This document shows positions 1,513-60,424 of a DNA stretch of 64,000 nt, one piece after another. The stretch covers positions 21,769,250 through 21,833,249 of the forward strand of contig CM026570.1 of assembly GCA_015143295.1 (NCBI GenBank), in the 5' to 3' direction. The notes under the pieces were generated by a model that saw only the letters and a program-made list of their open reading frames with translations, did no database searches and was not told where the DNA came from. The DNA is from Tetracentron sinense. Its lineage: Eukaryota > Streptophyta > Magnoliopsida > Trochodendrales > Trochodendraceae. Each line of letters begins with the position of its first letter. Position 1 is the stretch's first letter. The position numbers and the translations under genes are program-made.

Positions 1513-1820
1513 TGTAGAGCCCCAGACTTTTTCATGCTTAATACATGACACTTTCGTTGTCATCTTGCCTTTTTAAGAGGTACGATTAATAAATGAGGAA
1601 GAATTTGGAAATTTTGAAATGTCAGAATTGTTCCTTTTCGAAGTACGAACACAACGCAAGTTGAATCGTCAAAATCGGACGAACGAGTCAAAAGATATGG
1701 CCAAAACAGTCTGTACCTGTAGGAATTCGTAGCACAGACAACGTACTCTGATAACGTATACTGTGTGCATCCGTGGTACAACTCACCACGGGCACGTTGT
1801 CCAGCTCACCACGGGTACGT

Positions 1821-2385
1821 TTCACAAGCACCACGAGTTGGCACTATTCACAAGCACCACGAGTGGCACTATTCACGGACCACGAGTGGCACTATTCACA
1901 AGCACCACGAGTGGCACTATTCACAAGCACCACGAGTTTGCACTATTCACAAGCACCACGAGTTTGCACTATTCACGGACCACGAGTGGCACTATTCACA
2001 AGCACCACGAGTTTGCACTATTCACGGACCACGAGTTGGCACTATTCACAAGCACCACGAGTGGCACTATTCACGGACCACGAGTGGCACTATTCACAAG
2101 CACCACGAGTGGCACTATTCACAAGCACCACGAGTTTGCACTATTCACGGACCACGAGTGGCACTATTCACAAGCACCACGAGTTGGCACTATTCACAAG
2201 CACCACGAGTTGGCACTATTCACAAGCACCACGGGTGGCACTATTCACGGACCACGAGTGGCACTATTCACAAGCACCACGAGTTTGCACTATTCACAAG
2301 CACCACGAGTGGCACTATTCACAGACCACGAGTTGACACTATTCACAGCACCACGAGTTGGCACTATTCACAGCACTATTCACAG
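1821..2385 (+). repeat. Tandem array in LTR: about 22 units around CCACGAGTGG
   Basis: Units of 22-26 bp alternate between two forms, one with a CAAGCA spacer and one with a CGG spacer. Each has the near-palindrome CCACGAGTGG (or CCACGAGTTGG, CCACGAGTTTG) and the string GCACTATTCAC. The array sits in U3 just upstream of the TATA-like box, where Tekay-2 instead carries the GATCGATC palindrome cassette. All three forward frames are open across it because no unit contains a stop; I do not regard these as proteins. An enhancer role is inference. Confidence 0.95.
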
Positions 2386-9290: not shown

Positions 9291-9598
9291 TGTAGAGCCC
9301 TAGACTTTTTCATGCTTAATACATGACACTTTCGTTGTCATCTTGCCTTTTTAAGAGGTATGATTAATAAATGAGGAAGAATTTGGAAATTTCGAAATGT
9401 CAGAATTGTTCCTCTTCGAAGTACGAACACAACGCAAGTTGAATCGTCAAAATCGGACGAACGAGTCAAAAGATATGGCCAAAACAGTCTGTACCTGTAG
9501 GAAATCGTAGCACAGACAACGTACTCTGATAACGTATACTGTGTACATCCGTGGTACAACTCACCACGGGCACGTTGTGCAGCTCACCACGGGTACGT

Positions 9599-10262
9599 TT
9601 CACAAGCACCACGAGTTGGCACTATTCACAAGCACCACGAGTGGCACTATTCACGGACCACGAGTGGCACTATTCACAAGCACCACGAGTGGCACTATTC
9701 ACAAGCACCACGAGTTTGCACTATTCACAAGCACCACGAGTTTGCACTATTCACGGACCACGAGTGGCACTATTCACAAGCACCACGAGTTTGCACTATT
9801 CACGAACCACGAGTTGGCACTATTCACAAGCACCACGAGTGGCACTATTCACGGACCACGAGTGGCACTATTCACAAGCACCACGAGTGGCACTATTCAC
9901 AAGCACCACGAGTTTGCACTATTCACAAGCACCACGAGTGGCACTATTCACGGACCACGAGTGGCACTATTCACAAGCACCACGAGTTTGCAATATTCAC
10001 AAGCACCACGAGTTGGCACTATTCACAAGCGCCACGAGTGGCACTATTCACGGACCACGAGTGGCACTATTCACAAGCACCACGAGTTTGCACTATTCAC
10101 AAGCACCACGAGTGGCACTATTCACAAGCACCACGAGTGGCACTATTCACAGACCACGAGTTGACACTATTCACAGCACCACGAGTTGGCACTATTCACA
10201 GACCACGAGTTGACACTATTCACAGCACCACGAGTTGGCACTATTCACAGCACTATTCACAG
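9599..10262 (+). repeat. Tandem array in 3' LTR: about 26 units
   Basis: Same CCACGAGTGG / GCACTATTCAC units as at 1821-2385, with about four extra. The last two form a repeated pair (GACCACGAGTTGAC plus AGCACCACGAGTTGG). This indicates unequal exchange or slippage after insertion. Confidence 0.95.
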
Positions 10263-17888: not shown

Positions 17889-18189
17889 TGTCGCGACCCA
17901 AAACCCACCCTAGGAGTTAGAGTGAATCTTGGACGACTCAATCATGACTTACATAACTTGCTTGACAAACCAACCTGCAAAACCCCATAGAGCATATACA
18001 ATAGAGGACATTATCGCGGAAACATAACTATAAAACACAGCGGAAGTCTAACAAACCTCTAAGTATATACATATGGTCCAAGTTTATACAAAAAAGGTAA
18101 CCAAAAGAAAGTGCGGACAGACCCGCCAAAATACATGGATAAAATCTCTCATCTCACCCACAGCTAATCTACTCAGAATCTACAACCAC

Positions 18190-18309
18190 CTAATGGTAAC
18201 CCTCTACTAGAGGTTCCTCAAAAGGCTCCTCGACGTACTCCTCCTCCACCCATGGACTCGGAGCACAGATATCAAATGGAGCAGCTGCTCCGCCGTCACC
18301 TGCCGACAT
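18190..18309 (-). CDS. 39-codon LTR micro-ORF (Tekay-2, 3' LTR)
   Basis: ATG to TAG, 39 codons, beginning MSAGDGG with core PFDICAPSPWVEEEY. Same length and frame as in Tekay-1 although the surrounding LTR has indels between the two. The conserved hairpin precedes it. No known family is recognised. See 3716-3835 for the limits of the evidence. Confidence 0.45.
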   Translation of the reverse strand: MSAGDGGAAAPFDICAPSPWVEEEYVEEPFEEPLVEGYH

Positions 18310-18650
18310 AAGAAGTACGGCTGAGCATGGAATACTCAGCGGGTACTAAGCACTAACCAATAGTCATAGCATACGGATAGCATACATAAAGGAGGAAGCA
18401 AGTTGCATATATAGAACATGAACAATTTATATCATACAAGGAAGCAAAACAATTTATAATCATGCTTGTATTTCGTAGAAAGCCGATGAAACCTCTTGAA
18501 AACATCGTGCACTTGACTTGACTTGAAAATACCATTTCCGTGCTTGAAACTTATTATGTTGTCTTATCTTGTCATATCATGCGTGTCATGTCATGTCATG
18601 CGTGTCATGCGGTTATCATGCTTGCTTGTTCATAATTTAAACATGTTCAC

Positions 18651-18863
18651 ATGCCTAGTTGCCGTTCATAGTCCGTCACAACTAGTACCCTATATGCAGA
18701 TGGGTATGCCTAGTTGCCGTTCATAGCCCGTCGCAACTAGCATCCATGCAGAATGTGAATGCCGAGTTGCCGTTCATAGCCCGTCGCAACTAGCATCCAT
18801 GCGGAATGTGAATGCCTAGTTGCCGTTCATAGCCCGTCGCAACTAGCATCCATGCAGAATGTG
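18651..18863 (-). repeat. Hairpin minisatellite, four units of about 53-55 bp
   Basis: Four units each contain TAGTTGC (once GAGTTGC) and GCAACTA (GTCACAACT in one), separated by CGTTCATAGCCCGT. Each unit can therefore fold as a 6-7 bp hairpin. They lie in the transcribed part of the LTR, downstream of the TATA box in element direction. Confidence 0.85.
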
Positions 18864-19800
18864 TGATGCTATGTTATGCGTGTCATGCCATGCTATGCTA
18901 TGCGTGTCATGCGATGCTATGCATGTCATGCGAGGGGATGGGAGACCTTTCCCTATGAAATGCATGATTGTCTTGCCCTTGTCAAAAGCGAAGTGAAACA
19001 TATCTTAGGATATGCCCCACCTCTACGTCCCATACTTAAAACATCGGTAAATCACGTCATTTCATGCGTGCTCGTGAGATCGTGTGCATACTTGCATTTG
19101 GAATTAAATATGGCAATTTGGGGTAATTCACAAAGCATAGCATATAACAATTTAAGTGAGTAATAATCTACGCATTTTAAGAAATGTAAGAAACACACTA
19201 TCATGAACCCTAACAAATTTCAAGAGCAATTAAGCATGAGTTCCCTTAATTTATCATTTATTTTGTTCACCTTGGCATTTCATCAAACATGAGGTGTGTT
19301 CATTATTCACTTAAACTTAGATCATGCTTTCCTAGGTGGGTTATGCTCACATCACACTTGTATGTTCATTATTAATACAATGCCCTTTCCCATTCATTCA
19401 TCACCTCATCCACACGGCATCCATTCGCCAACATCCATCTTCATTCACCATTCATACCACCAATCTCATAACACATAAATAAATGAAGGAAAACAAGAAG
19501 AAATAAAGGAAAAGGGAAGCTATAACTAGGAGGGTAGTAAGAAGTACCGACCTTGATCAAGTGAGGAAGAAATCCCCCTTTCCAAAACGACCGTGAGTTG
19601 CTGCCCTAGCTTGAGGAGAGTGCCCCACACGAGCTTGAGCCGAGACTTGGAGAAAATAGACTTGAGGATGATCTAGGGTCTCAAACCCCTTTTGATTTCT
19701 CTTCAAAATGGAAACCCTAGGTTTAGGAAAACCTTCTCCTCTCTCTCTATCTCTCAAAAGACTCTAAGGGTTGAGAATGAGCCCTAAAGGCTCGGGCAAT

Positions 19801-19810
19801 CCTATATAAG
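19801..19810 (-). promoter_or_regulatory. TATA box of Tekay-2 LTR
   Basis: CTTATATAGG on the minus strand, about 60 bp downstream of the palindrome cassette in the direction of transcription. Confidence 0.75.
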
Positions 19811-19870
19811 AAAGGGTATAACCCCCGAATGCCGAAAATGCCCTTAGTGAAAATTCTGTAAAACGCGAGG

Positions 19871-20054
19871 ACCGAGCGATCGGTGTTAATGACCGATCGA
19901 TCGGTTGCCTACCGATCGATCGGTTTCATAACCGAGCGATCGGTTGAAATTTCACTCTCTGGAAAATTTCTCCATACAAACTTTCTGACCGCGCGATAGC
20001 TACCGATCGATCGGTTATGGACCGATCGATCGCTGACTGGACCGAGCGATCGGT
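19871..20054 (-). promoter_or_regulatory. GATCGATC palindrome cassette (Tekay-2, 3' LTR)
   Basis: 184 bp. In element direction it has three palindromes of the form ACCGATCGMTCGGT, then AGCTATCG, then TTTGTATGGAGAAATTTTCC and AGAGAGTG...TTTCAACC, then four more palindromes. The same order and spacing recur in the copia LTRs (31138-31322, 41054-41238) and in the LTR at 54326-54511. It lies just upstream of the TATA box, the usual place for LTR enhancers. The enhancer role is inferred. Confidence 0.8.
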
Positions 20055-20266
20055 TCTCTGTATGTCTGGACTGTTTTGACCATATCTTTTGACTCGCTCG
20101 TCGGATTTCGACGATTCAACTTGCGTTGGGTTCGTCTTTCGAAAACGCACATTTCTGACGTTTCGGAATTTTCGATTTCTCCTTTATTTATTAATTAGAC
20201 TACAAAAATGGCCAATTAGCTACGAAGGTGCTATTCATTAAGGATGAAAAAGTCCGGGGTGCTACA

Positions 20267-20358: not shown

Positions 20359-23300
20359 CTATTCAAACAACTCGGGATACTTTGCTTTGACTTCGGCTTC
20401 ACGCTCCCACGTGGCTTCTTCTCGGGCATGATGTTGCCATTGCACGAGAACCAAAGGGATTGTCTTGTTGCGAAGCACTTGATCTCTCCGATCCAATATG
20501 TGAATCGGCTTCTCAACCAACGTGAGATCTTCTCGAATTTCCAACGGTTCCAATTCTAGTACATGTGAAGGGTCCGCAATGTACTTCCGAAGCATAGACA
20601 CGTGGAAAACGTTGTGAACCGCGGCCATGTAAGGTGGAAGAGCTACTCGATAAGCAACTTCGCCAACCCGCGTGATAATCTCAAACGGTCCAACATAGCG
20701 AGGACTAAGCTTGCCTCTTTTGCCGAATCTCATAATCCCTTTACTAGGAGATACTTTCACAAAAACTTGATCCCCTACTTGAAATTCCAAGTCCCTGCGG
20801 CGCGTGTCCGCATAACTTTTCTGGCGATCTTGAGCGGCTTTCAATCGATCCCGAATGATCTTAACTGTGTTTGCAGTTTGTTCAATCAATTCTGGACCAA
20901 GTAATTTCCTTTCTCCTACCTCATCCCAATAGAGAGGAGACCTACAACTTCGCCCATACAAGGCCTCAAATGGTGCCATTTGGATACTTGCCTGATAGCT
21001 GTTATTGTAGGCGAATTCAACCAAAGGCAAATGCTCTTCCCAACTGCCTCTGAAATCCATCATACAAGCCCGAAGCATGTCTTCAATGACTTGGTTCACT
21101 CTCTCGGTTTGTCCATCCGTCTGTGGATGAAAAGCGGTGCTGAAATCGAGTCGGGAACCCATAGCCTCCTGGAAGCTTTTCCAGAATCGCGATGTGAACC
21201 TTGGATCCCGATCTGACACAATACTAACGGGCACTCCGTGCAACCTCACCACTTCCTTGATGTACAAAGCGGCTAACTGGCTAGAGTTGAAAGTAGTTCG
21301 GTACGGTAGGAAATGAGCGGATTTCGACAAACGATCCACTACTACCCATATCGCATCTGAGCCCCTTGCCGTCTTTGGCAAGCCAACTATGAAATCCATG
21401 GATATATTCTCCCATTTCCACTCGGGAATCGGAAGGGACTGTAATAGACCGGCGGGCCGCATGTGTTCTGCTTTCACCTGTTGACACACCAAGCACCGTG
21501 CTACATATTCCGCAACCTCCCTCTTCATATTTCGCCACCAAAAGTGACTCTTGAGGTTCCGGTACATCTTCGTACCCCCTGGATGCACTGTGTACTTCGA
21601 ACGGTGTGCTTCATCCAAAATCTCTCTTCGAAGGTCTGCATTGGCTGGGACGCACAGCCTTCCCTTGAATGTGATAGCACCCCGACTAGTGAGAGAAAAG
21701 TCTTCACTGCCCTTGGCAACTTCCTTGTCCCGGAAAGCCAACAATTCCGCATCCATGGCTTGATACTCTTGGATCAAATCTATAATGTACGGCCGAACCG
21801 TAACATTTGCCAAGGTAGGACCACGGACAGAGTTATTCACACTGATGTCCAGATTTGCCAAATCTTTTAGCAGCTTCCATTCTTGAACCAACATGTGTGC
21901 TAACAACCCCTGAGGTCTTCTACTCAAAGCATCAGCCACTACATTTGCTTTACCCGGGTGGTATTGAATGGTACAATCATAGTCCTTCAGGAATTCCATC
22001 CAACGCCGTTGCCTTAGATTCAATTCCTTTTGGGAAAAGAGGTATTTGAGACTCTTGTGATCCGTATACACATAGAATTCCACCCCGTATAAGTAATGTC
22101 GCCAGTTCTTGAGCGCAAACACGACAGCGGCAAGCTCTAAGTCGTGCGTGGGGTAATTCTTCTCATGCTCCTTCAATTGCCTCGATGCATAGGCAATGAC
22201 CTTCTTGTGTTGCATAAGCACACATCCAAGTCCAACGTGTGAGGCATCACTGTACACCTCATACCCAAGAGGTCCGGATGGCACTGTAAGGACAGGAGCT
22301 GTAGTAAGCCTCTTCTTCAGTTCCGTGAAACTGATCTCACACTTGTCGCTCCAAACAAACTGCGCATTCTTCCGTGTCAGGTGAGTGAGCGGTGCTGCAA
22401 GGCTGGAGAAACCCTCTACGAATCTCCTGTAGTAGCCTGCCAACCCAAGAAAACTGCGTATCTCCGTGACACTCTTGGGCCTCGCCCAATTCATGACTGC
22501 CTCTATCTTCTTTGGATCCACCGAAATGCCTTCCGCCGATACAACGTGGCCTAGGAATGCCACCTCTTCCAACCAAAACTCACACTTGCTAAGTTTGGCG
22601 TATAGCTTGTGCTCTCTTAGCATTTCCAAAGCAAGGCGCAGGTCGCGTGTGTGATCTTCCCGTGTCTGGGAATAAACCAAAATGTCATCAACAAATACAA
22701 TCACGCACCTATCAAGATATGGCCGGAACACCCGGTTCATCAAATCCATAAAAGCTGCCGGCGCGTTCGTGAGTCCAAAAGGCATCACCAAGAACTCGTA
22801 ATGTCCATATCGAGTCCTGAAAGCAGTTTTGGGAACATCTTCCACCTTAATCTTCAACTGGTGATAACCCGATCGAAGATCTATCTTTGAGAAAAATCTT
22901 GCTCCCTTCAACTGATCGAACAAGTCGTCAATCCTAGGCAATGGATACCTATTCTTTATAGTGACTTTGTTCAATTGCCGGTAATCGACACACATCCGCA
23001 TCGAACCATCTTTCTTCTTGACAAACAACACTGGGGCACCCCACGGTGAGACACTTGGTCGAATGAAGCCAAGGCTTTGTAATTCTTCCAACTGAGCCTT
23101 TAACTCTTTGAGTTCAATAGGGGCCATTCTATACGGAGCCCTGCAAACAGGAGCTGTGCCTGGTGCAAGCTCGATCATAAACTCAATCTCCCTGTCTGGA
23201 GGCAATCCTGGCAACTCCTCTGGAAATACATCCAGGAACTCACTCACAACCGGCATAGTTGATGAGTCCTTTGCCTCGGGGTTAGCTACGCCCAACGCCG

Positions 23301-23684
23301 CAAAACGAGCAATCGATCTGCTTTTCAACCCGCGAAAGTGGAATGGTTTTCCTTCTACTGGCTTGAAGAGTACCATTTTCTCAAAACAAGCTACATGCCC
23401 ATGATGTGCTGCTAACCAATCCATTCCCAATATAACATCAAAGTCTTGGAATCCAAGGACGATGAGATCAACCGCCAACTCGTGGCTTCCAACTTGGACC
23501 ACACCATTTCTATACACTTTATCTGCCAATACTGTTTTGCCAAGAGGAGTCGAAATGGCTAACTCCGGTTCTAGCTGACTTGGCTCCCCAGAAAAGCCTT
23601 CTGAAAAACTCGGCGAGACAAACGAATGAGTAGACCCGGTATCAATCAACACTCGAGCCAAATACTCATTGACTAGTAGGGTTC
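20359..23684 (-). CDS. pol: Tekay-2 pol exon: protease, RT, RNase H, integrase, chromodomain
   Basis: The exon begins at 23684 after the splice acceptor (GTLLVNE) and runs without a stop to 20359. Motifs in order: protease DTGSTHS; RT with [11 protein letters not shown] and catalytic FVDDILVYS; RNase H with [10 protein letters not shown] and [10 protein letters not shown]; integrase with zinc residues around CLVCQQVK and the acidic triad in [16 protein letters not shown] and TDGQTERVN; and C-terminal [14 protein letters not shown] of chromodomain type. All catalytic residues I can check are present. There is no ATG needed at the exon start if it is spliced to gag; the first Met is at 23661. 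The product is a polyprotein that copies the RNA and inserts the cDNA. Confidence 0.95.
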
Positions 23685-23828
23685 CTGAAATTTTAGCTAG
23701 TTACGTCAATTCAAGCCTCAACAGTGTATACACGTAAGTAAATATATATATAGCATACCAACTACGTACACGAGGAATAAAACATAACACAACAATCACG
23801 AATAAGGAAAATAACTCCTAACGCGTAC
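23685..23828 (-). other. Intron between gag and protease (Tekay-2)
   Basis: On the minus strand it begins GTACGCGTTAG and ends AAAATTTCAG, 144 nt, the same as in Tekay-1. Unspliced RNA stops at TAG three codons into the intron (23818-23820) and gives Gag only. Spliced RNA gives one Gag-Pol frame. Both copies keep donor, acceptor and length. Confidence 0.78.
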
Positions 23829-25434: not shown

Positions 25435-25739
25435 CTTCTGTCGCGACCCAAAACCCACCCTAGGAGTTAGAGTGAATCTTGGACGACTCAATCATGACTT
25501 ACATAACTTGCTTGACAAACCAACCTGCAAAACCCCATAGAGCATATACAATAGAGGACATTATCGCGGAAACATAACTATAAAACACAGCGGAAGTCTA
25601 ACAAACCTCTAAGTATATACATATGGTCCAAGTTTATACAAAAAAGGTAACCAAAAGAAAGTGCGGACAGACCCGCCAAAATACATGGATAAAATCTCTC
25701 ATCTCACCCACAGCTAATCTACTCAGAATCTACAACCAC

Positions 25740-25859
25740 CTAATGGTAACCCTCTACTAGAGGTTCCTCAAAAGGCTCCTCGACGTACTCCTCCTCCACC
25801 CATGGACTCGGAGCACAGATATCAAATGGAGCAGCTGCTCCGCCGTCACCTGCCGACAT
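25740..25859 (-). CDS. 39-codon LTR micro-ORF (Tekay-2, 5' LTR)
   Basis: Identical to 18190-18309. In this LTR it would lie in the 5' leader of the genomic RNA, upstream of gag, and could act as an upstream ORF. Confidence 0.45.
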   Translation of the reverse strand: MSAGDGGAAAPFDICAPSPWVEEEYVEEPFEEPLVEGYH

Positions 25860-26191
25860 AAGAAGTACGGCTGAACATGGAATACTCAGCGGGTACTAAG
25901 CACTAACCAATAGTCATAGCATACGGATAGCATACATAAAGGAGGAAGCAAGTTGCATATATAGAACATGAACAATTTATATCATACAAGGAAGCAAAAC
26001 AATTTATAATCATGCTTGTATTTCGTAGAAAGCCGATGAAACCTCTTGAAAACATCGTGCACTTGACTTGACTTGAAAATACCATTTCCGTGCTTGAAAC
26101 TTATTATGTTGTCTTATCTTGTCATATCATGCGTGTCATGTCATGTCATGCGGTTATCATGCTTGCTTGTTCATAATTTAAACATGTTCAC

Positions 26192-26404
26192 ATGCCTAGT
26201 TGCCGTTCATAGTCCGTCACAACTAGTACCCTATATGCAGATGGGTATGCCTAGTTGCCGTTCATAGCCCGTCGCAACTAGCATCCATGCAGAATGTGAA
26301 TGCCGAGTTGCCGTTCATAGCCCGTCGCAACTAGCATCCATGCGGAATGTGAATGCCTAGTTGCCGTTCATAGCCCGTCGCAACTAGCATCCATGCAGAA
26401 TGTG
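26192..26404 (-). repeat. Hairpin minisatellite in Tekay-2 5' LTR
   Basis: Same four units as at 18651-18863. Confidence 0.85.
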
Positions 26405-27411
26405 TGATGCTATGTTATGCGTGTCATGCCATGCTATGCTATGCGTGTCATGCGATGCTATGCATGTCATGCGAGGGGATGGGAGACCTTTCCCTATGAA
26501 ATGCATGATTGTCTTGCCCTTGTCAAAAGCGAAGTGAAACATATCTTAGGATATGCCCCACCTCTACGTCCCATACTTAAAACATCGGTAAATCACGTCA
26601 TTTCATGCGTGCTCGTGAGATCGTGTGCATACTTGCATTTGGAATTAAATATGGCAATTTGGGGTAATTCACAAAGCATAGCATATAACAATTTAAGTGA
26701 GTAATAATCTACGCATTTTAAGAAATGTAAGAAACACACTATCATGAACCCTAACAAATTTCAAGAGCAATTAAGCATGAGTTCCCTTAATTTATCATTT
26801 ATTTTGTTCACCTTGGCATTTCATCAAACATGAGGTGTGTTCATTATTCACTTAAACTTAGATCATGCTTTCCTAGGTGGGTTATGCTCACATCACACTT
26901 GTATGTTCATTATTAATACAATGCCCTTTCCCATTCATTCATCACCTCATCCACACGGCATCCATTCGCCAACATCCATCTTCATTCACCATTCATACCA
27001 CCAATCTCATAACACATAAATAAATGAAGGAAAACAAGAAGAAATAAAGGAAAAGGGAAGCTATAACTAGGAGGGTAGTAAGAAGTACCGACCTTGATCA
27101 AGTGAGGAAGAAATCCCCCTTTCCAAAACGACCGTGAGTTGCTGCCCTAGCTTGAGGAGAGTGCCCCACACGAGCTTGAGCCGAGACTTGGAGAAAATAG
27201 ACTTGAGGATGATCTAGGGTCTCAAACCCCTTTTGATTTCTCTTCAAAATGGAAACCCTAGGTTTAGGAAAACCTTCTCCTCTCTCTCTATCTCTCAAAA
27301 GACTCTAAGGGTTGAGAATGAGCCCTAAAGGCTCGGGCAATCCTATATAAGAAAGGGTATAACCCCCGAATGCCGAAAATGCCCTTAGTGAAAATTCTGT
27401 AAAACGCGAGG

Positions 27412-27595
27412 ACCGAGCGATCGGTGTTAATGACCGATCGATCGGTTGCCTACCGATCGATCGGTTTCATAACCGAGCGATCGGTTGAAATTTCACTCTC
27501 TAGAAAATTTCTCCATACAAACTTTCTGACCGCGCGATAGCTACCGATCGATCGGTTATGGACCGATCGATCGCTGACTGGACCGAGCGATCGGT
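27412..27595 (-). promoter_or_regulatory. GATCGATC palindrome cassette (Tekay-2, 5' LTR)
   Basis: 184 bp, the same as 19871-20054 apart from a single base. This is the copy that would act on transcription of the element. The TATA box follows at about 27342-27351. Confidence 0.8.
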
Positions 27596-27807
27596 TCTCT
27601 GTATGTCTGGACTGTTTTGACCATATCTTTTGACTCGCTCGTCGGATTTCGACGATTCAACTTGCGTTGGGTTCGTCTTTCGAAAACGCACATTTCTGAC
27701 GTTTCGGAATTTTTGATTTCTCCTTTATTTATTAATTAGACTACAAAAATGGCCAATTAGCTACGAAGGTGCTATTCATTAAGGATGAAAAAGTCCGGGG
27801 TGCTACA

Positions 27808-30825: not shown

Positions 30826-31137
30826 TGTAAATTCCTAAATAGGTGTTGGCAAATTCCATGATCATTAGATAGGTCATGTGAGTCGAGTCGTCGAGTCATG
30901 TTCAACTTGTCAGAAGAGAAGAGCTAAAGCTTAAAAAAGATTGAAGAAAGTGAAGAAAAAGCTCCTACTCTGGATCTAGAAAGGTAATGGACTTAGAGAC
31001 CCCTACCTAGGTTGGATTTGGCTTAGATAACTCTAAACATACCTAGGAGGATAGTTTTAAACCTAACAAAGTTGTTTGATCTTAGTTGAATCAAATAAAC
31101 AAGAAAAGACATATGGTTTGAAACAAATTCTGTCTCA

Positions 31138-31322
31138 ACCGATCGCTCGGTATTGAGACCGATCGATCGGTGGCCTACCGAGCGATCGGTGGCTATCGAC
31201 TGGACCAAATTTGTGTATGGGGTATTTTTCCAGAGAGATGATTTTCAACCGCTCGATCGGTCACGGGAACCGAGCGATCCGTTTTGGACCGAGCGATCGG
31301 TAATGAGCACCGATCGATCGGT
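31138..31322 (+). promoter_or_regulatory. GATCGATC palindrome cassette (copia 5' LTR)
   Basis: 185 bp. Palindromes ACCGATCGCTCGGT, ACCGATCGATCGGT and ACCGAGCGATCGGT come first. Then GGCTATCGACTGG, then TTTGTGTATGGGG...TTTTTCCAGAGAG and TTTTCAACC, then four more palindromes. It aligns end to end with the 184-bp cassette of the gypsy element Tekay-2 and lies 47 bp upstream of the TATA box. Confidence 0.82.
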
Positions 31323-31368
31323 CCCCGTAAAAAGAATTTTTATTTTTCTGGATTCTTTTTCTAAACCC

Positions 31369-31376
31369 TATATAAA
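31369..31376 (+). promoter_or_regulatory. TATA box of copia LTR
   Basis: TATATAAA, 47 bp after the cassette. Confidence 0.8.
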
Positions 31377-32056
31377 CAACTTTTTGGAGACCTAATTCGT
31401 GTCTTTGTTTATTTTTGAAACAATAGAGGTCTGAGAAACTCTTCTAGGGTTTTTCCTATTGTTCTATTAGATCTTTGTTGATCCCTCCTCTTTCTTTGAT
31501 CCTAGAGAATGCAAGTATAGATCTAAACCTTTGATCTTGCATTGTGTGATCTCAGATCTATATGAGATCCCTCTAGGGTTTGAAATTTCCTAAATTGATT
31601 CACAACCCTACACCTTGTGAGTGTGTCTGGTGTTTGATCCGGAGCCTTCGTGGAAGGAGATCGATCGTGTGTGATCGTGGTTTTGAAGTAGCATGAGAAG
31701 ATTTGGTCGGTGTGGAACCAAAGCTGCTACGGCGGAGATCGAACCTGCTGGTTCGTGGAAATCAAGAGTAAGAGTCTATACCTATGAACGTCGTTTCTGT
31801 TTTGGTAAGGTCTTGTCTTGTACTTGATATCTTTTCATAGTGAAGTTTATTGCTGGACAAGGTCCCGTGGTTTTTCCCCGTTAGGGTTTTCCACGTAAAA
31901 ATCTTCTGTGTTTGATTTGTGTGGATTGTCTGAGTGAATTGTTCATTGATTTCTAAACATATTAATTGAAAATTTAAAATTGGTTAGAAATTATTAGATA
32001 GACCTATTCACCCCCCCTCTAGGTCTTAGAGATCATTGATCTGGATAAATTTCAAT

Positions 32057-33587: not shown

Positions 33588-36500
33588 ATGGAGCTGGAAA
33601 CTTTTAAAGACTCTCTTGTTGATAAGGTGAAATTTCTTGAAAAAGAACATCAAATTACCCTTAAAGACAAGACTGACTTGATTCAGAAGGTCTATACTCT
33701 TGAAAAAGAAGTAAGAATGTTTGGTAACACTAGCTGCCTAGATGAATTAGTTAGAAAGTATGGGTCAAATTCGAGTAGATCTGGGATAGGACATGCTGAC
33801 ACACCAGCTGGTCCTTTAGCTGTTGGTACAATGGCTAGTGTAGTGTTTGAGCCAATACATTCTGATCCTAAAGTGAATCTACCTTCTACATCAAGTACTA
33901 AGGCTTATACAAATTTTGTAAAGCCTAGAGATACAGCTCCTAGAGTGAATGCATTGAGGAATCAAATTCCTTTTAGAGGAAATCCTCCTCCTCTCCCAAG
34001 ATTCATACCCACATGTCACTTTTGTGGTGTGAGAGGTCACATACGACCAAATTGTAATGCTTTTAGGAGAGCTCCTCAAAATGGTTCATGGAACCAAAAT
34101 CAAATTCAAGGGACTCTTCAAAGGCAGATTCAGGTTCTGGCTGAAAAGTCTAGAATATTGAGCGAAGATGTTAATAGAATTGCTCAAATCTCTATGACAA
34201 GAACTGGTCAATTTATTCCAAATGATTATTCAAGAGGAAAGAATTTGACTAATCAAAAAGCTAGAACTGAACAAAATAAGAAAAGGTCAAGGAGGAAAAA
34301 AAGGAAAAAGGTTTCTAATACACAGTTTAATGATCAAAGATCTAAACAAAGTTTAAAGACTGTGAATGTAAGAAAGGATGACCTGAAGAGCTTCGTCATT
34401 CACACTGCCTTGAAAGCCCAAAACATAGAAATGTGGTACTTCGACAGTGGGTGTTCTCGGCATATGACAGGTAACAAGTCCTTATTTACTCAATTTGAGG
34501 ACTGTCCAGATGGGACTGTTACTTTTGGTGATGGAAGCAAGTCTTTAGTAAAGGGGAAGGGTATCATCGATTCACCAGGCATACCAAAATTGAAAGATGC
34601 CTTGTTTGTTGAAGGACTAAAAGCTAATTTAATTAGCATAAGTCAACTATGTGATAACCATGCTGTGCACTTTACCCAAAATAAATGTTTAGTCATTAAT
34701 GGTAAAGGTAAGTGTGTTCTAGAAGGGTTGAGAACCACTGACAATTGCTACGGCTTAATTCCCAATCCTAATCCCTCAAATGTCTGTTATAAGACTAAAA
34801 TTGAGGAAGTTGATTTATGGCACCGAAGACTAGGTCACATGAACTTCAAAGACCTATGCAAAATCTCTAAGCAAGAGCTTGTGAGAGGTGTTTCCAAACT
34901 AGGAAAGCCTTCTACTGCTGTGTGTGGGCCATGCCAAATTGGTAAACAAATTAGAACCCCACATAAGAAGACTTCAAGTATTGCTACTTCATATCCACTG
35001 GAATTAATTCATATGGATCTTATGGGTCCTACAAGAACTGAAAGCCTAGGTGGAAAGCGATACATCCAAGTCATGGTTGATGATTTCTCAAGAATGTCAT
35101 GGGTGACATTTATAAGAGAGAAATCCGATGCTTTTGACAATTTCAAAAGTATTTGCTTGAAAATTCAAAATGAGAAAAGATGCCCAATCACTCGAATTCG
35201 AAGTGATCATGGAAAGGAGTTTGAAAACTCTAAGTACAACGACTTTTGTGATGAGTCGGGTATCAAACATGAATTTTCTGCACCTATTACACCTCAGCAG
35301 AATGGTATAGTAGAGAGGAAGAACAGGGTTCTCCAAGAGATGGCTAGAGTTATGATTCATAGCAACAATCTAGCTTCTCATTTCTGGGCTGAGGCAGTTA
35401 ACACTGCTTGCTATATAGTTAATAGAGTTTTTGTAAGACCTGGAACAAGGAAAACCCCATATGAGTTGTGGAATAACAAGAAACCTAGTGTCAAGTACTT
35501 TCGAGAATTTGGAAGTAAATGCTATATCCTTAAGGATAGAGAGCAACTGGGCAAATTTGAATCCCGGAGTGATGAAGGGATATTTCTTGGATATTCCACC
35601 AACAGTAGAGCTTATCGAGTGTATAACTTGAGAACCTCTACGATTATGGAGTCCATAAATGTAGTTGTGGATGACTCCGGTGTTGAAACTGTGCAACTTG
35701 AGGATGATGAAAGTGCTAAATATGAAAATGTTGAAACTGTTTCAACTCCACCTATAAATAAGCACTCATCTCCATCAAAACCTACACATTCTAGGGTTAT
35801 GAGTCCTCACACCCCCACTGATATAATTGGTGATGTTGAAAGTGGAGTGAGAACGAGGAAACAAATTGAAAATGAAGTTAGCTACATTTGCTATACTTCA
35901 TCTTTTGAACCCAAGAATGTAGCTGAAGCTCTTGCGGATGATAATTGGATAAATGCAATGCAAGAAGAGTTACTTCAGTTTACTAGGAATGATGTTTGGT
36001 ATTTAGTACCTAGGCCTAACAATACAAATGTGATTGGTACCAAATGGATTTTCAAGAATAAATGTGATGAAAAAGGTACTATCATAAGAAATAAGGCTAG
36101 GTTAGTTGCACAAGGATACACCCAAATTAAAGGTATTGACTTCGATGAAACGTTTGCTCCTGTAGCCAGGCTAGAATCAATAAGAATTCTTCTAGCTGTG
36201 GCTTGCCATATGAAATTCAAACTTTTTCAAATGGATGTTAAGAGTGCCTTTCTGAATGGCATTCTACATGAGGAAGTCTATGTGGAACAACCAAAAGGGT
36301 TTGAAGATCCACATCACCTTAATCAAGTCTATCGGCTAAAAAGGGCCCTCTATGGTTTAAAGCAAGCTCCAAGAGCTTGGTATGAGAGGCTGACTACTTA
36401 TCTCTTGGAAAACGGATTTTCGAGAGGGGGAGTAGACAGAACCCTTTTCATAAAAAATGTGAAAGGTGATATTGTCATCGCCCAGATATATGTTGATGAC

Positions 36501-37432
36501 ATAGTGTTTGGTTCCACATTAGACTTACATGCTCTTTCATTTGCTGAACAAATGAAAAATGAATTTGAAATGAGCATGGTTGGTGAGCTAAGTTTCTTCC
36601 TTGGTCTTTAGATTAAGCAATTGGATTCTAGGATCTCAGTATCTCAAATCAAATATGCTAAAAATCTAGTGAAGAAATTTGGCATGAGCTCTGCTAAGCA
36701 TGTAAGAACTCCTATGAGTTCTACTACAAAATTTAGTAAAGATGCGTCAGGCAAAGATGTTGATCAAACTTCTTATAGAAGCATGATTGGTAGTTTACTC
36801 TACCTAACTGCTACTAGACTTAACATAGCCTTTAGTGTTGGTGCTTGTGCCCGCTATCAAGCGAGCCCAAAAGAGTCTCACTTGCTTGCAGTTAAGCGTA
36901 TCATTAGATATGTGAGTGGAACTCTATCATTTGGCCTCTTGTATTCTTTTGATACAAATGCCACGATAGTTGGATATTCCGATGCCGATTGGGCCGGAAA
37001 TGCTGATGATAGGAAAAGCACCTCTGGAGGATGTTTCTATATTGGAAACTGCTTAGTTGCTTGGCTTAGCAAAAAGCAGAATTCAATTTCATTGTCCACT
37101 GTAGAAGCTGAGTACATAGCAGCTGCAGTTGTTGCACTCAACTTCTGTGGATGAAGCAGATGTTGAATGATTACGGGATTGAACAGAGCACTATGACTGT
37201 GTATTGTGATAATTTAAGTGCTATCAATATTTCCAAAAATCCCGTTCAACATTCTCGCACAAAACACATAGACATAAGACATCACTTCATCCGTGATCTT
37301 GTTGAGCAAAAGATTGTGTCTATAGAGTATGTCCAAACAGAGAATCAATTTGCGGACATTCTAACAAAACCCTTAGATTTCCTTAGGTTTGAACTCCTTA
37401 GGAAATCCATAGGTTTGTGCGGAGTTGAGTAA
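33588..37432 (+). pseudogene. pol: Copia pol: second zinc knuckle, protease, integrase, RT, RNase H
   Basis: Domains in order: end of the coiled coil; CCHC knuckle [14 protein letters not shown] near 34016; protease [16 protein letters not shown]_pre-integrase [11 protein letters not shown]; integrase with [21 protein letters not shown] and [15 protein letters not shown] with [21 protein letters not shown] and catalytic [10 protein letters not shown]; RNase H with GYSDADWAGNADDRKSTSGG and VYCDNLSAINISKNP. A TAG at 36609 stands where related elements have Gln (LGLQIKQ). A frameshift near 37120-37150 separates the last 93 codons. Integrase before RT makes this copia. It is non-functional. Confidence 0.92.
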
Positions 37433-38618: not shown

Positions 38619-38676
38619 ACCGATCGCTCGGTGTTAAAGACCGATCGATCGGTCTTTCGTGAACAGAGTTATAAAA
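38619..38676 (+). promoter_or_regulatory. Two palindromes plus TATA-like box before the extra ORF
   Basis: ACCGATCGCTCGGT at 38619-38632 and ACCGATCGATCGGT at 38640-38653 match the first two palindromes of the LTR cassette. TATAAAA follows at 38670-38676. The extra ORF begins about 190 bases on. This could be an internal promoter for that ORF; the role is inferred. Confidence 0.55.
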
Positions 38677-38867
38677 CCCTCATTTCTATTTTTCTTGTTC
38701 ACTTGTTCTCCGAACTCTAGAGCGATCTCTCGGTTTCCTCTCCTCCAAATCCTTCCTACGGTCATTCCATTCACCTCTAAGGGTTTTCCAAGCATCAAAA
38801 AGGTAAGACTTGTGCGTTTTCTTGAGTATAGATTGATTTTCTCATCTAGGGCATCGTCGATTCATCA

Positions 38868-40157
38868 ATGGCTTTCCTTTTGTCCTTAATCCTCTTAGCC
38901 TATCTCATGTCTGGCGTTCCCAAACGCCGAAAGTTGGTCCTCAACAACCAAGAGGACCCTCCTGAAGATGAGCAAAACCTAGAGCCTTTTACTTTCACTC
39001 CAATAGGGCATGGTATTTCAATTGGGGACAAGCCAATTCGTAGAATGATAGATTCTACAATTGAGAATCGTCAAAAATCTTTGGCTGATAAAACTAGGAA
39101 AAATAAAGGTAAAGCTTCATCTTCCCAGTCCAGTCAGTTATCCCAGTTCATAAGTCCTACTGCTGCTCAACTCTATAGTGAGTATTTTAGCAAGAAAGGT
39201 GTAATGGTTGAAAGGGAAATTTAAATTGCCGATTTTGGTGATTATTATCTTCCTAAACTCATTTCAGATCGTAAATGGGAAGGTATACTTACCTTATCCG
39301 GTCATGCTTCTGTCCAGTTAGTTAAGGAATTTTACTCTAATTTTTCTGAAATCAACCATAAAAAATGGTCATTCAAATCTCGAGCATTAGAACAATCTGT
39401 TGTCATAAATGCTGATTTGATTTCTAAATTCCTTGGCTGTCCTCGAGTTCCAAATGCATATTATCCTTATAATTATAAGAGTGATGAGAATAAAGACACC
39501 ATGGAACATGTTGTTACCTTTCTTTGTGGTACTCCTACGTTTTGGGTTGGGTCTCTTATTGAAGTGGCGAAACTCACTAAGGATGCTAGACTAGTAAACC
39601 TAGTTATGAGTGCAAATATCCATCCAAAGGTTCATAATGCGGACCTTAGGGAAGATAGAGCTAGGTTTCTATTTAGTCTTCTACGTGGGCGTGATATTGA
39701 TCTTGCCGCTCACATCATTGACTTGATGATCCAAGCCTATCAAACTGTTACAGCAGTTGGAGCCCTACCATTTGGTTCACTCATCACTAAACTTCTTGGT
39801 TCTCAAGGAGTTATCGCTCCTCCTGGTGTTCCTACTCGAGTTCCTAAGGGTCCAATCAACAAAAAGACCCTAGCTCAGAGTTTTTCACATGCCTCAGTTC
39901 GAGATACAGAGGAGGGAGTAGAAGTTGGTGCTGGGTCATCTCGTCCTCCTCCGACCACTATGGATGATCTTGCCAGGATGATACGAGAGATGCAGATGGA
40001 TCTCAGGACTCATGTTTCGTCATACGAGGAGTTTACTACAGACGTTCGTGGTAGACTTGGATCTCTCGATGCAGCAGTGCTGGGCGTACAGAGAGATGTT
40101 CGGGATTTTCGAGCTTACTATGAGTCCCAGCTCACTTCTGATGATGAGCAGGATTGA
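38868..40157 (+). pseudogene. Extra ORF behind copia pol (plant transposon protein domain-like)
   Basis: A frame of 430 codons including the stop, broken only by TAA at 39222. The N-terminus is hydrophobic (MAFLLSLILLAYLM) followed by basic PKRRK; an alternative start at 38907 would omit the hydrophobic part. The middle (residues about 100-310: WEGILTLSGHASVQLVKEFY, ADLISKFLGCPR, LPFGSLITKLL) looks like the 'putative plant transposon protein' domain seen in many plant elements. The C-terminal 70 residues look like a coiled coil. SIRE-type elements are known for an extra, sometimes envelope-like, ORF here; the hydrophobic start is the only envelope-like trait I see. Function is unknown. Confidence 0.7.
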
Positions 40158-40729: not shown

Positions 40730-40741
40730 AAAGGGGGAGAT
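40730..40741 (+). promoter_or_regulatory. Polypurine tract (copia)
   Basis: AAAGGGGGAGAT directly before the 3' LTR start TGTTAATTCC. A similar string (AAAAAGGGGGAGAG) lies at about 40402-40415. The spacer 40158-40729 has no gene. Confidence 0.88.
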
Positions 40742-41969
40742 TGTTAATTCCTAAATAGGTGTTGACAAATTCCGTGATCATTAGATAGGTCATGTGAGTC
40801 GAGTCGTCGAGTCATGTTCAACTTGTCAGAAGAGAAGAGCTAAAGCTTAAAGAAGATTGAAGAAAGTGAAGAAAAAGCTCCTACTCTGGATCTAGAAAGG
40901 TAATGGACTTAGAGACCCCTACCTAGGTTGGATTTGGCTTAGATAACTCTAAACATACCTAAGAGGATAGTTTTAAACCTAACAAAGTTGTTTGATCTTA
41001 GTTGAATCAAATAAACATGAAAAGACATATGGTTTGAAACAAATCCTGTCTCAACCGATCGCTCGGTATTGAGACCGATCGATCGGTGGCCTACCGAGCG
41101 ATCGATGGCTATCGACTGGACCAAATTTGTGTATGGGGTATTTTTCCAGAGAGATGATTTTCAACCGCTCGATCGGTCATGGGAACCGAGCGATCCGTTT
41201 TGGACCGAGCGATCGGTAATGAGCACCGATCGATCGGTCCCCGTAAAAAGAATTTTTATTTTTCTGGATTCTTTTTCTAAACCCTATATAAACAAATTTT
41301 TGGAGACCTAATTCGTGTCTTTGTTTATTTTTGAAAGAGTAGAGGTCTGAGAAACTCTTCTAGGGTTTTTCCTATTGTTCTATTAGATCTTTGTTGATCC
41401 CTCCTCTTTCTTTGATCCTAGAGAATGTAAGTATAGATCTAAACCTTTGATCTTGCATTGTGTGATCTCAGATCTATATGAGATCCCTCTAGGGTTTGAA
41501 ATTTCCTAAATTGATTCACAATCCTACACCTTGTGTGTGTGTCCGGTGTTTGATCCGGAGCCTTCGTGGAAGGAGATCGATCGTGTGTGATCGTGGTTTG
41601 AAGTAGCTTGAGAAGATTTGGTCGATGTGGAACAGAAGCTGCTACGGCGGAGATCGAACCTGCTGGTTCGTGGAAATCAAGAGTAAGAGTCTATACCTAG
41701 GAACGTCGTTTCTATTTTGGTAAGGTCTTGTCTTGTACTTGATATCTTTTCATAGTGAAGTTTATTGCTGGACAAGGTCCCGTGGTTTTTCCCCGTTAGG
41801 GTTTTCCTCGTAAAAATCTTCTGTGTTTGATTTGTGTGGATTGTCTGAGTGAATTGTTCATTGATTTCTAAACATATTAATTGAACATTTAAAATTGGTT
41901 AGAAATTATTAGATAGACCTATTCACCCCCCCTCTAGGTCTTAGAGATCATTGATCTGGATAAATTTCA
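40742..41969 (+). repeat. Copia 3' LTR
   Basis: 1228 bp, same layout as 30826-32054, ending AAATTTCA before the resumed Athila sequence. Confidence 0.93.
41054..41238 (+). promoter_or_regulatory. GATCGATC palindrome cassette (copia 3' LTR)
   Basis: 185 bp, with a few substitutions against 31138-31322, one of which changes the third palindrome. Confidence 0.82.
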
Positions 41970-48524: not shown

Positions 48525-48529
48525 TTATC
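48525..48529. repeat. Tat element target site duplication, left copy (TTATC)
   Basis: TTATC directly before TGTAAGGGAT, repeated at 60425-60429 directly after the 3' LTR. Confidence 0.88.
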
Positions 48530-48766
48530 TGTAAGGGATACAATTCGTAAAAATGATTAAGTGTTGGAGAACGAGCTAGTGTTCGTTGTTATGTCAACAG
48601 ATGAGAGACACATACCCAAATTGAGAGCGAATCCTTGCTCTTCTGGACAATGGACCCATTGTCTCCATGACAACATATTCGTTACCCGGAAGACGAACGT
48701 AGCCGTCCTCTTTGGATAACGGTTATTCTATTCGTGTTCTCATACACAACGAGCCCGAGCTCAAGT
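48530..48766 (+). repeat. Remnant of Tat 5' LTR
   Basis: Matches 59744 to about 59985 of the 3' LTR, then breaks off. About 440 bases of LTR including the TATA box, plus the primer site, are missing. Confidence 0.88.
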
Positions 48767-48793
48767 CGGGGCCACTTCTGACTCGTATGCTCA
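48767..48793 (+). repeat. 27-bp templated filler at a deletion junction
   Basis: An exact copy of 48976-49002 in the gag sequence 200 bases downstream. It sits precisely where the 5' LTR breaks off. Confidence 0.75.
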
Positions 48794-54325: not shown

Positions 54326-54511
54326 ACTGATCGCTCGGTGTTATCCTCCAATCGACCGGTCCTCTATTGATCGATCAATAGCTATCGACTGGTTAACTTT
54401 TTTGTATGAGGAAAAATTCTAGAGAGGGTGTTTTCAACCGATCTCTAGGTTGAAACCACCGATCGACCGATAAGCCACCGATCGCTCGGTCTGAACCACC
54501 GATCGATCGGT
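54326..54511 (+). promoter_or_regulatory. GATCGATC palindrome cassette (third LTR family)
   Basis: 186 bp with decayed palindromes (ACTGATCGCTCGGT at the start, ACCGATCGATCGGT at the end) and the same core (TAGCTATCGACTGG, TTTTGTATGAGG, TTCTAGAGAGGGTGTTTTCA). The TATA box lies 57 bp downstream. Confidence 0.8.
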
Positions 54512-54567: not shown

Positions 54568-54575
54568 TATATAAA
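54568..54575 (+). promoter_or_regulatory. TATA box of the solo LTR
   Basis: TATATAAA, 57 bp after the cassette. Confidence 0.75.
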
Positions 54576-59731: not shown

Positions 59732-59743
59732 CAAGGGGCAATT
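59732..59743 (+). promoter_or_regulatory. Polypurine tract (Tat element)
   Basis: CAAGGGGCAATT directly before the 3' LTR; somewhat eroded. Confidence 0.6.
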
Positions 59744-60424
59744 TGTAAGGGATAAAATTCGTAAAAATGATTAAGTATTAGAGAACGAGCTAGTTTTCAT
59801 TGTTATGTCAACAAACGGGAGACACATACCCAAATTGAGAGCGAATCTATGCTCTTCTGGACAACGGACCCGTTGTCTCCATGACAACATATTCATTACC
59901 CGGACGGCGAACGTAGTCATCCTCTTTGGACAACGGTTATTTTATTCGTGTTCTCATATACAACGAGCCCAAGCTTGAGTCAACAAGGAGACCGACTCGC
60001 AGGAGGAAGTGATCAGGAGGTGATCATTCTACTCTGACAATAGGTGAAAAGCACTGTCTTGGCATTTAATGCTGGTCACTTATGCGTTCTGTCAGACCCA
60101 AACCGACTCAATTAATAGTAGGCTCACATGTGTGACACATAAGGCCCCGAATATGTCTGAAATATTTGGTAATGAGTGTAGTGCACGTGATATGGGCATC
60201 CATGGATATCCTAAGCTAAACCTATAAATACCCCCAAAGACTCAGTGATTCAGGACCAGGAAATTTCGTATCTCTCACTTTTATTATTTTTACTATTCAT
60301 CATCTTCTCCACATACTTACTTTGGCATCGGAGTGCAGGACAGGGTTCAAACCCTCCACCTTCAACCTTCTACTAGAGATCGCAGCATCGCTGACGCGTG
60401 GACTTTCCGGAAAATTTTCACACA
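59744..60424 (+). repeat. Tat 3' LTR
   Basis: 681 bp, TGTAAGGGAT to TTTTCACACA. A TATA box (TATAAATA) lies at 60221-60228. Confidence 0.88.
60221..60228 (+). promoter_or_regulatory. TATA box of Tat 3' LTR
   Basis: TATAAATA after AAACC. It points toward the glycosyltransferase fragment about 720 bases downstream and could in principle drive it. Confidence 0.7.

Follow-up and report, generated by a model that had tools for sequence, protein, structure and literature searches.

Copia and gypsy retrotransposons in the 64,000-nucleotide stretch of DNA analysed here (the window) carry one and the same cassette in their LTRs, and the controls set out below confirm that the sharing is real. Its anatomy, its distribution over the two superfamilies and its pattern of conservation are matters of direct observation. 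We give a probability of roughly one half to the following reading: the cassette would be a promoter-proximal LTR module that is bound by protein, and its core, and probably also its palindrome array, would have been exchanged between the superfamilies long ago.

Anatomy of the cassette and its host elements

The cassette consists of seven dyad-symmetric 14-bp sites, spaced about two helical turns apart, three of them ahead of a fixed core and four behind it. In the 5' LTR of a SIRE-type copia element (S), on the plus strand at 31138..31322 (S1), three palindromes are followed by an abutting 14-mer, the core and four further palindromes. The copy in the 3' LTR (S2, 41054..41238, plus strand) matches S1 at 183 of 185 positions. 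The two copies in the Tekay-2 gypsy element (T2) lie on the minus strand, at 19871..20054 in the 3' LTR (T2a) and 27412..27595 in the 5' LTR (T2b), and match each other at 183 of 184 positions. The fifth copy (X, 54326..54511, plus strand) sits in a Tekay-type LTR that is probably solo. All five, of 184-186 bp, are present where an earlier note on this DNA had placed them. That inventory overlooked a partial copy (copy N, 38619..38653, plus strand) with two palindromes of the S dialect, located inside the SIRE element upstream of an env-like ORF. A TATAAAA motif stands 16 bases past copy N (38670..38676, plus strand), and a third, weak palindrome with 3 mismatches is found downstream of it, at 38721.

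Between palindromes 3 and 4 lies a stretch that in S1 measures 57 bp (31191..31247, plus strand). It holds the 14-mer, a GGCTATCGACTGG-like piece abutting palindrome 3, and the core, which reads ...TGTATGGGG...TTTTTCCAGAGAG...TTTTCA. Counted from the core end, the sites start at about -100, -80, -61, +10, +31, +50 and +71, about 20 bp apart, and for most SIRE and most Tekay copies these starts differ by no more than 1-2 bp. The window contains 34 palindromes, defined as 14-mers with at most 2 mismatches to ACCGATCGATCGGT, and all of them fall within the five cassettes and copy N; ten first-order Markov controls yielded none at the same threshold.

All copies have one orientation relative to transcription, as the earlier note had stated: T2 and S follow the coding strand, and X, which lacks a coding region, is oriented through its LTR relatives. 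The cassette ends shortly before a TATA box, at distances of 46 bases in S (5' LTR box at 31369..31374, 3' LTR box at 41285..41290, both plus strand), 56 in X (54568..54573, plus strand) and 61 in T2 (TATA-like boxes at 19802..19809 and 27343..27350, minus strand), a range slightly wider than the 47-60 bp first claimed. By the simple motif used, a TATA-like sequence was found in 39 of 40 SIRE instances but in only 31 of 51 that are Tekay-type or unclassed, which counts against a promoter-proximal role.

The S element is a copia element by domain order, with rve ahead of RVT_2 in its pol (33588..36611, plus strand). Its 5' LTR (30826..32054, plus strand, ends read from the letters) is 97.9% identical to the 3' LTR at about 40742-41969, and the env-like ORF (PF20167) occupies 39225..40157 (plus strand). 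The Sirevirus marks of a poly-C signal and an LTR/PBS junction are present, and AGGGGGAG lies at 40732-40739, starting 10 bp ahead of the 3' LTR (TG at 40742). The RVT_2 pol order, the poly-C signal, the LTR/PBS junction and AGGGGGAG are all SIRE/Sirevirus features in the available text of Bousios et al. 2010 (PMC2829016). The element is flanked by fragments of another gypsy pol.

The 3' LTR of Tekay-2 (17889..20266, minus strand) is 99.5% identical to 25439-27807, and this value together with that for S suggests recent activity of both elements. Its pol (20359..23700, minus strand) has clear RVT_1, RNase H and integrase domains and a weak chromodomain (E 3.3e-4; 21.0 bits, below the Pfam cut-off of 25.1); the label Tekay is the name used in the earlier note. 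A related element, Tekay-1, carries a 667-bp tandem array of CACGAGTGGCACTATTCAC units (1712..2378, plus strand) at the LTR slot occupied by the cassette in Tekay-2. The flanks of this slot are homologous in the two elements (79% and 75%), and the difference between them is a clean swap of tandem array and cassette. The array of CACGAGTGGCACTATTCAC-type units recurs near 9490-10255, precisely at Tekay-2's cassette slot.

The earlier note had treated X as a third LTR family. X-type LTRs at other loci adjoin Tekay pol, with 74-87% amino acid identity to the T2 pol at L025, L041, L043, L044 and L048 and 68-79% at L049; X therefore belongs with T2, and a third family or separate superfamily is refuted. 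No partner LTR for the window copy was found in the window, and the copy looks like a solo LTR. The X LTR is inserted in an old gypsy element, which a further repeat pair at 48527-48767 and 59741-59981 (90% identity) encloses.

Sequence shared between the superfamilies

Whole cassettes match at 138/185 (T2a-S1), 136/188 (T2a-X) and 128/187 (S1-X) positions. The alignment scores of 202, 185 and 157 compare with dinucleotide-shuffle maxima of 49, 42.5 and 44, and in each case none of 1000 shuffles was as good. With the palindromes masked, as the earlier note had proposed, the interval from palindrome 3 to palindrome 4 continues to surpass shuffled sequence: of 20000 dinucleotide shuffles, 0, 1 and 0 equal its 34/57, 28/43 and 32/57 matches. 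The spacers of the window cassettes are equal in length within one base but not in letters, which align no better than shuffles (1648, 1085 and 4404 of 5000 as good). At the BLAST threshold used, homology between T2 and S is restricted to 19850-20055 and 31137-31340, in agreement with the statement that these gypsy and copia LTRs share nothing else.

Cores from other loci extend this result. Twenty-eight SIRE x Tekay core pairs average 27.4 matches in 42, a value inflated by the choice of cores by pattern or eye, against 11.1 ± 3.0 in flanks taken at equal offsets (maximum 25, n = 1376). The core of one distant SIRE locus, L064, was found by eye and is weak (20-26/42 to other cores); the pairs that include it, at 22-26 matches, reach the control maximum. 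This core-picking bias does not enter the shuffle test done with the copies in the window. Common descent of the non-palindromic core, as the earlier note had argued, is thus well supported. Regulatory sites can converge, and the palindrome half of the signal could have done so, but full convergence with no part of common descent is extremely improbable: the core surpasses shuffles, and it recurs with fixed spacing and orientation throughout the genome.

We searched the 1.16-Gb genome with a palindrome-free core pattern of 35 places, allowing up to 1 mismatch, and obtained 3622 matches against 0 for the reversed control. The first 30 loci in contig order, a non-random sample, were fetched and classed by their cassette-masked LTR flanks (Tekay panels: T1, T2 or X) as 6 SIRE/copia, 24 Tekay-type gypsy and 0 other. 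The cassette is therefore neither confined to one superfamily nor an assembly artefact, since thousands of copies are spread across both superfamilies. Neither of the two outcomes that would have undone the earlier note's claim, a core no better than shuffled sequence and a cassette limited to one superfamily, is observed.

A search with SIRE LTR ends gave 1091 matches (control 0), and the core was found at up to 4 substitutions in 24 of the 30 loci fetched. At the remaining six (L052, L053, L055, L061, L064 and L076), the cassette region of L055 is a run of N, and cores are recognisable by eye in L053 and L064. At L076 a Tekay LTR is inserted within the SIRE LTR's cassette, about 800 bp ahead of the SIRE LTR end, and carries another array, of GTACAACGTACACGTTGTTGC-like units. 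In the more distant SIRE families L052, L061 and L064 the corresponding part of the LTR holds other palindromes (CAGACGTCGACGTCTG, TTGGGTCGACCCAA and AGGGTCGACCCT), all TCGA-centred. Several S-family cassettes (L057, L060, L062, L066, L070, L073 and L080) have a Tekay-like core, GAAATTTTCC or GAAAATTTCC, and not GTATTTTTCC.

The core also occurs together with a different palindrome, CGGTCGACCG, in 78 genome matches (control 0). Among the 12 such loci fetched, L082 is SIRE; L083, L084, L087, L089, L090, L091 and L093 have Tekay flanks or the Tekay marker; and L086 is one of a pair of matches 7.3 kb apart with Tekay pol in between (74% amino acid identity, L094). The class of the other three is not firm: L085 and L088 are unclassified, and L092 has kept a weak T1-like flank. 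A copia gag next door to L092 made it a candidate for a non-SIRE copia carrier, which was ruled out as that copia element is bracketed by its own repeats. A search for ATCGAT cassettes that bear the Tekay marker and the first part of the 14-mer gave 4032 matches (control 0). A 25-mer of copy N has 992 genome matches at up to 2 mismatches (reversed control 0), and a by-eye comparison among the matches listed pairs at least seven S-type LTR ends of the plus strand on C1 with a copy N some 6.6 kb downstream, the arrangement seen in the window. Copy N is therefore a feature of the family.

Dialects and the history of the cassette

The ATCGAT and GTCGAC dialects each occur in both superfamilies. 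The nearest SIRE relatives sampled have an S-like LTR backbone, a similar core and the different palindrome CGGTCGACCG, which Tekay LTRs use too. S and L053 are 73% identical over 707 bp of LTR backbone outside the cassette and 85% in gag amino acids, whereas the flanks of ATCGAT-type Tekay cassettes are not clearly related to S (z at most 2.5). Within the cassette the order is reversed. S is 65-72% identical to the ATCGAT-type Tekay cassettes (T2, L009, L010 and X), 54-57% to its SIRE relatives L053 and L082 (54% to L053), and 56-57% to the GTCGAC-type Tekay cassettes L087 and L093.

Compared by region, S and the Tekay_GATC cassettes are 81% identical in the palindromes, 75% in the 14-mer, 72% in the core and 23% in the spacers, for which the null is 0.22 ± 0.07. 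The corresponding values for S and L053 are 0.44, 0.41, 0.65 and 0.37. The sharing of palindromes, 14-mer and core alongside spacers at the null points to selection on the sites and not on the whole stretch.

We built an unrooted tree from 82 of the 94 pattern-collected cassettes, with identical, short and N-holding ones dropped. SIRE_S (31 rows) and Tekay_GATC (37 rows, including X-type and flank-classed ones) join at 100/99 and form separate groups, supported at 100/98 and 91/95. L053 and L082 join the GTCGAC-type Tekay cassettes (100/79 and 99/79), and L064 joins L085 and L092 (81/85). A single SIRE clade is rejected on the whole cassette (p-AU 0.022), where the tree is driven partly by the palindromes, and is not rejected on the 57 core columns (p-AU 0.10), where it is little resolved. 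The region, spacer and tree results together point to an old exchange, or to palindromes that changed in parallel while the core they surround had been shared since earlier times.

The earlier note's proposal in its simplest form, a recent transfer of the cassette from gypsy to copia or the reverse, fits the sharp end of homology at the cassette edges, and nested Tekay-in-SIRE insertions exist, one of them within a cassette (L076). It is nonetheless very unlikely, given that S and Tekay_GATC stand apart in the unrooted tree and that their spacers are at the null, while Tekay cassettes keep a mean mutual spacer identity of at least 0.44 in every backbone bin, near-random bins included. An S-type GGCCT spacer behind the Tekay marker likewise has 0 genome matches (exact matches, with X-type LTRs lacking the marker). 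The spacer argument carries a caveat, as spacers can be lost: SIRE pairs with a backbone near 0.45 drop to a spacer identity of 0.19 (59 pairs).

Parallel change is a possible account, though a doubtful one. Core and slot would have been shared long ago, and the ATCGAT palindromes would have arisen separately in S and in Tekay, tracking the same host factor. The presence of both palindrome centres in both superfamilies speaks for this, as do the S spacers, which are nearer to L053 than to Tekay, the env-side copy N, which shares the LTR's dialect though it lies outside the LTR, and the core-only tree, which needs no transfer. A GGCCT spacer ahead of palindrome 3, common to S, S', L053 and L082, hints at inheritance in place with changed palindromes. 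Two features argue against it. The abutting 14-mer (GCTATCGACTGG-like, at most 3 substitutions in 12) is common to S and Tekay_GATC (31/31 SIRE_S, 35/37 Tekay_GATC and 2/8 Tekay_GTCGAC cassettes) and absent from all three other SIRE cassettes, as also from three unclassed ones. The S core is moreover closer to 12 of 13 Tekay cores (29-34/42, with 26 in X) than to those of L053 and L082 (26 and 28 of 42).

The horizontal exchange put forward in the earlier note thus loses its recent form, and its old form is supported, not proven. The unrelated spacers of S and Tekay count against an old transfer as well, and because of them no donor is visible. In the preferred reading of an old exchange, SIRE and Tekay most likely owe their common module to a single ancestral sequence that crossed from one superfamily to the other in the distant past and gave rise to the core and probably also to the ATCGAT-type array; the same host factor would since have held the module letter by letter while the spacers drifted. 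A broader statement, which we hold tentatively and at somewhat less than even odds, is that the whole module of array, core and register, in two dialects, may have passed between Ty1/copia and Ty3/gypsy, swapped at one LTR slot, so that unrelated elements would be rivals for a single host activator and would shift dialect in step.

Predicted function and comparison with known systems

The position of the cassette 46-61 bases before the TATA box, its register of about 20 bp, its conserved core and its CpG excess fit a protein-bound promoter-proximal array. CpG observed/expected ratios are 1.5-2.0 in the three cassettes and 0.5-0.8 elsewhere in the LTRs that hold them. We infer protein binding and activation from this arrangement; the array is most likely bound by a dimeric host protein. 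The same evenly spaced palindromes before the start signal in both kinds of element suggest that one plant protein switches both on, and one activator common to both is plausible. The palindromes would be occupied by dimers of a single DNA-binding protein of the host, a second factor would probably sit on the core, and the two together would recruit transcription to the LTR TATA; in the SIRE element, two further sites lie ahead of the TATA at the env-like gene. A literature search gave, among the entries listed, no usable support for a LOB-domain protein as a candidate binder of CCG-N6-CGG.

The arrays could instead act through structure, as RNA hairpins in the 3' U3 or DNA cruciforms, and through the small RNAs these provoke. 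Predicted RNA folding is strong in the three cassettes (z -6.2, -8.1 and -4.3), and maize Sirevirus palindromes have been linked to small RNAs, as cited in the available text of PMC10760457. The three cassettes fold differently, however, the conserved core is not palindromic, and most palindrome changes are one-sided, which argues against selection for base-paired stems. Of the 211 palindromes from S, 86 vary at position 6, 34 at position 9 and 0 at both (13.9 expected); of the 265 from Tekay, 133 vary at position 9, 4 at position 6 and 3 at both. Complementary double changes, over all positions, number 0/211 in S and 6/265 in Tekay. We consider a structural mode of action quite unlikely.

Copia and gypsy elements are not known to exchange regulatory parts by any established process, and the shared core offers a handle for testing such exchange. 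That each superfamily has both dialects points to a single host factor, which may act on thousands of LTRs. Identifying this factor would explain how two major lineages of plant retrotransposons are co-regulated and why Sirevirus palindromes vary among species.

Three known systems resemble the cassette in part. For the first, Del, we take the name to denote the Tekay lineage. Cruz et al. 2014 (PMC4029996, available text) describe a plastic 5' CpG island in Del LTRs as a derived monocot feature found in none of five eudicots. Tekay-1 and Tekay-2 similarly swap a variable CpG-rich LTR stretch; unlike the cassette, the island is absent from the eudicots of that paper, whose main text, as available, does not use the term "palindrom". 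The second system is that of maize Sirevirus LTRs, which according to the accessible part of PMC10760457 carry clusters of palindromes (CACCGGACNNNGTCCGGTG). As here, one palindrome occurs in more than one element class, copia and Helitron; unlike here, that part describes no core or register common to superfamilies, and maize Ty3/gypsy elements are said there to be generally without an obvious structure peak. The available portions of PMC2829016, PMC4029996, PMC10760457 and PMC11656987 describe no core, register or dialects common to copia and gypsy elements. Literature searches returned, among the matches listed, no sharing of a palindrome module with gypsy and, for literal palindrome strings, no plant LTR paper.

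The third system is the repeated palindromic motif (RM) that Bousios et al. 2010 (PMC2829016, available text here and below) found in 13 Sireviruses and not in classic copia elements. RM boxes are dyad-symmetric and CpG-rich and lie in the first LTR half shortly before the TATA, with more before the env-like gene; that paper could not name a common binding factor. The S element has the same kind of boxes in the same two places. RM calls for at least 8 motifs per element, and S has seven per LTR plus two full and one weak before the env-like ORF; RM stands upstream of the LTR TATA and ENV, as do the S cassette (46 bases) and copy N. S is itself a Sirevirus, as RM carriers are, whereas T2, X and, among the 30 loci fetched for the core, 24 have Tekay-type flanks and are not. 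The RM signature is CGG..CCG; the ATCGAT dialect has CCG..CGG (CCG-N6-CGG), the GTCGAC dialect (L053 and L082) has CGG..CCG, and Tnd-1 in the table of PMC2829016 also lacks the signature. That text describes no fixed core and no gypsy carrier, whereas here array, core and spacing are common with gypsy/Tekay. Palindromic boxes before TATA and ENV are thus already known from Sireviruses, and their sharing with gypsy was not seen in the literature searched. The Vitis RM in PMC2829016, CGGTCGACCG, is the dialect of L053 and L082 here.
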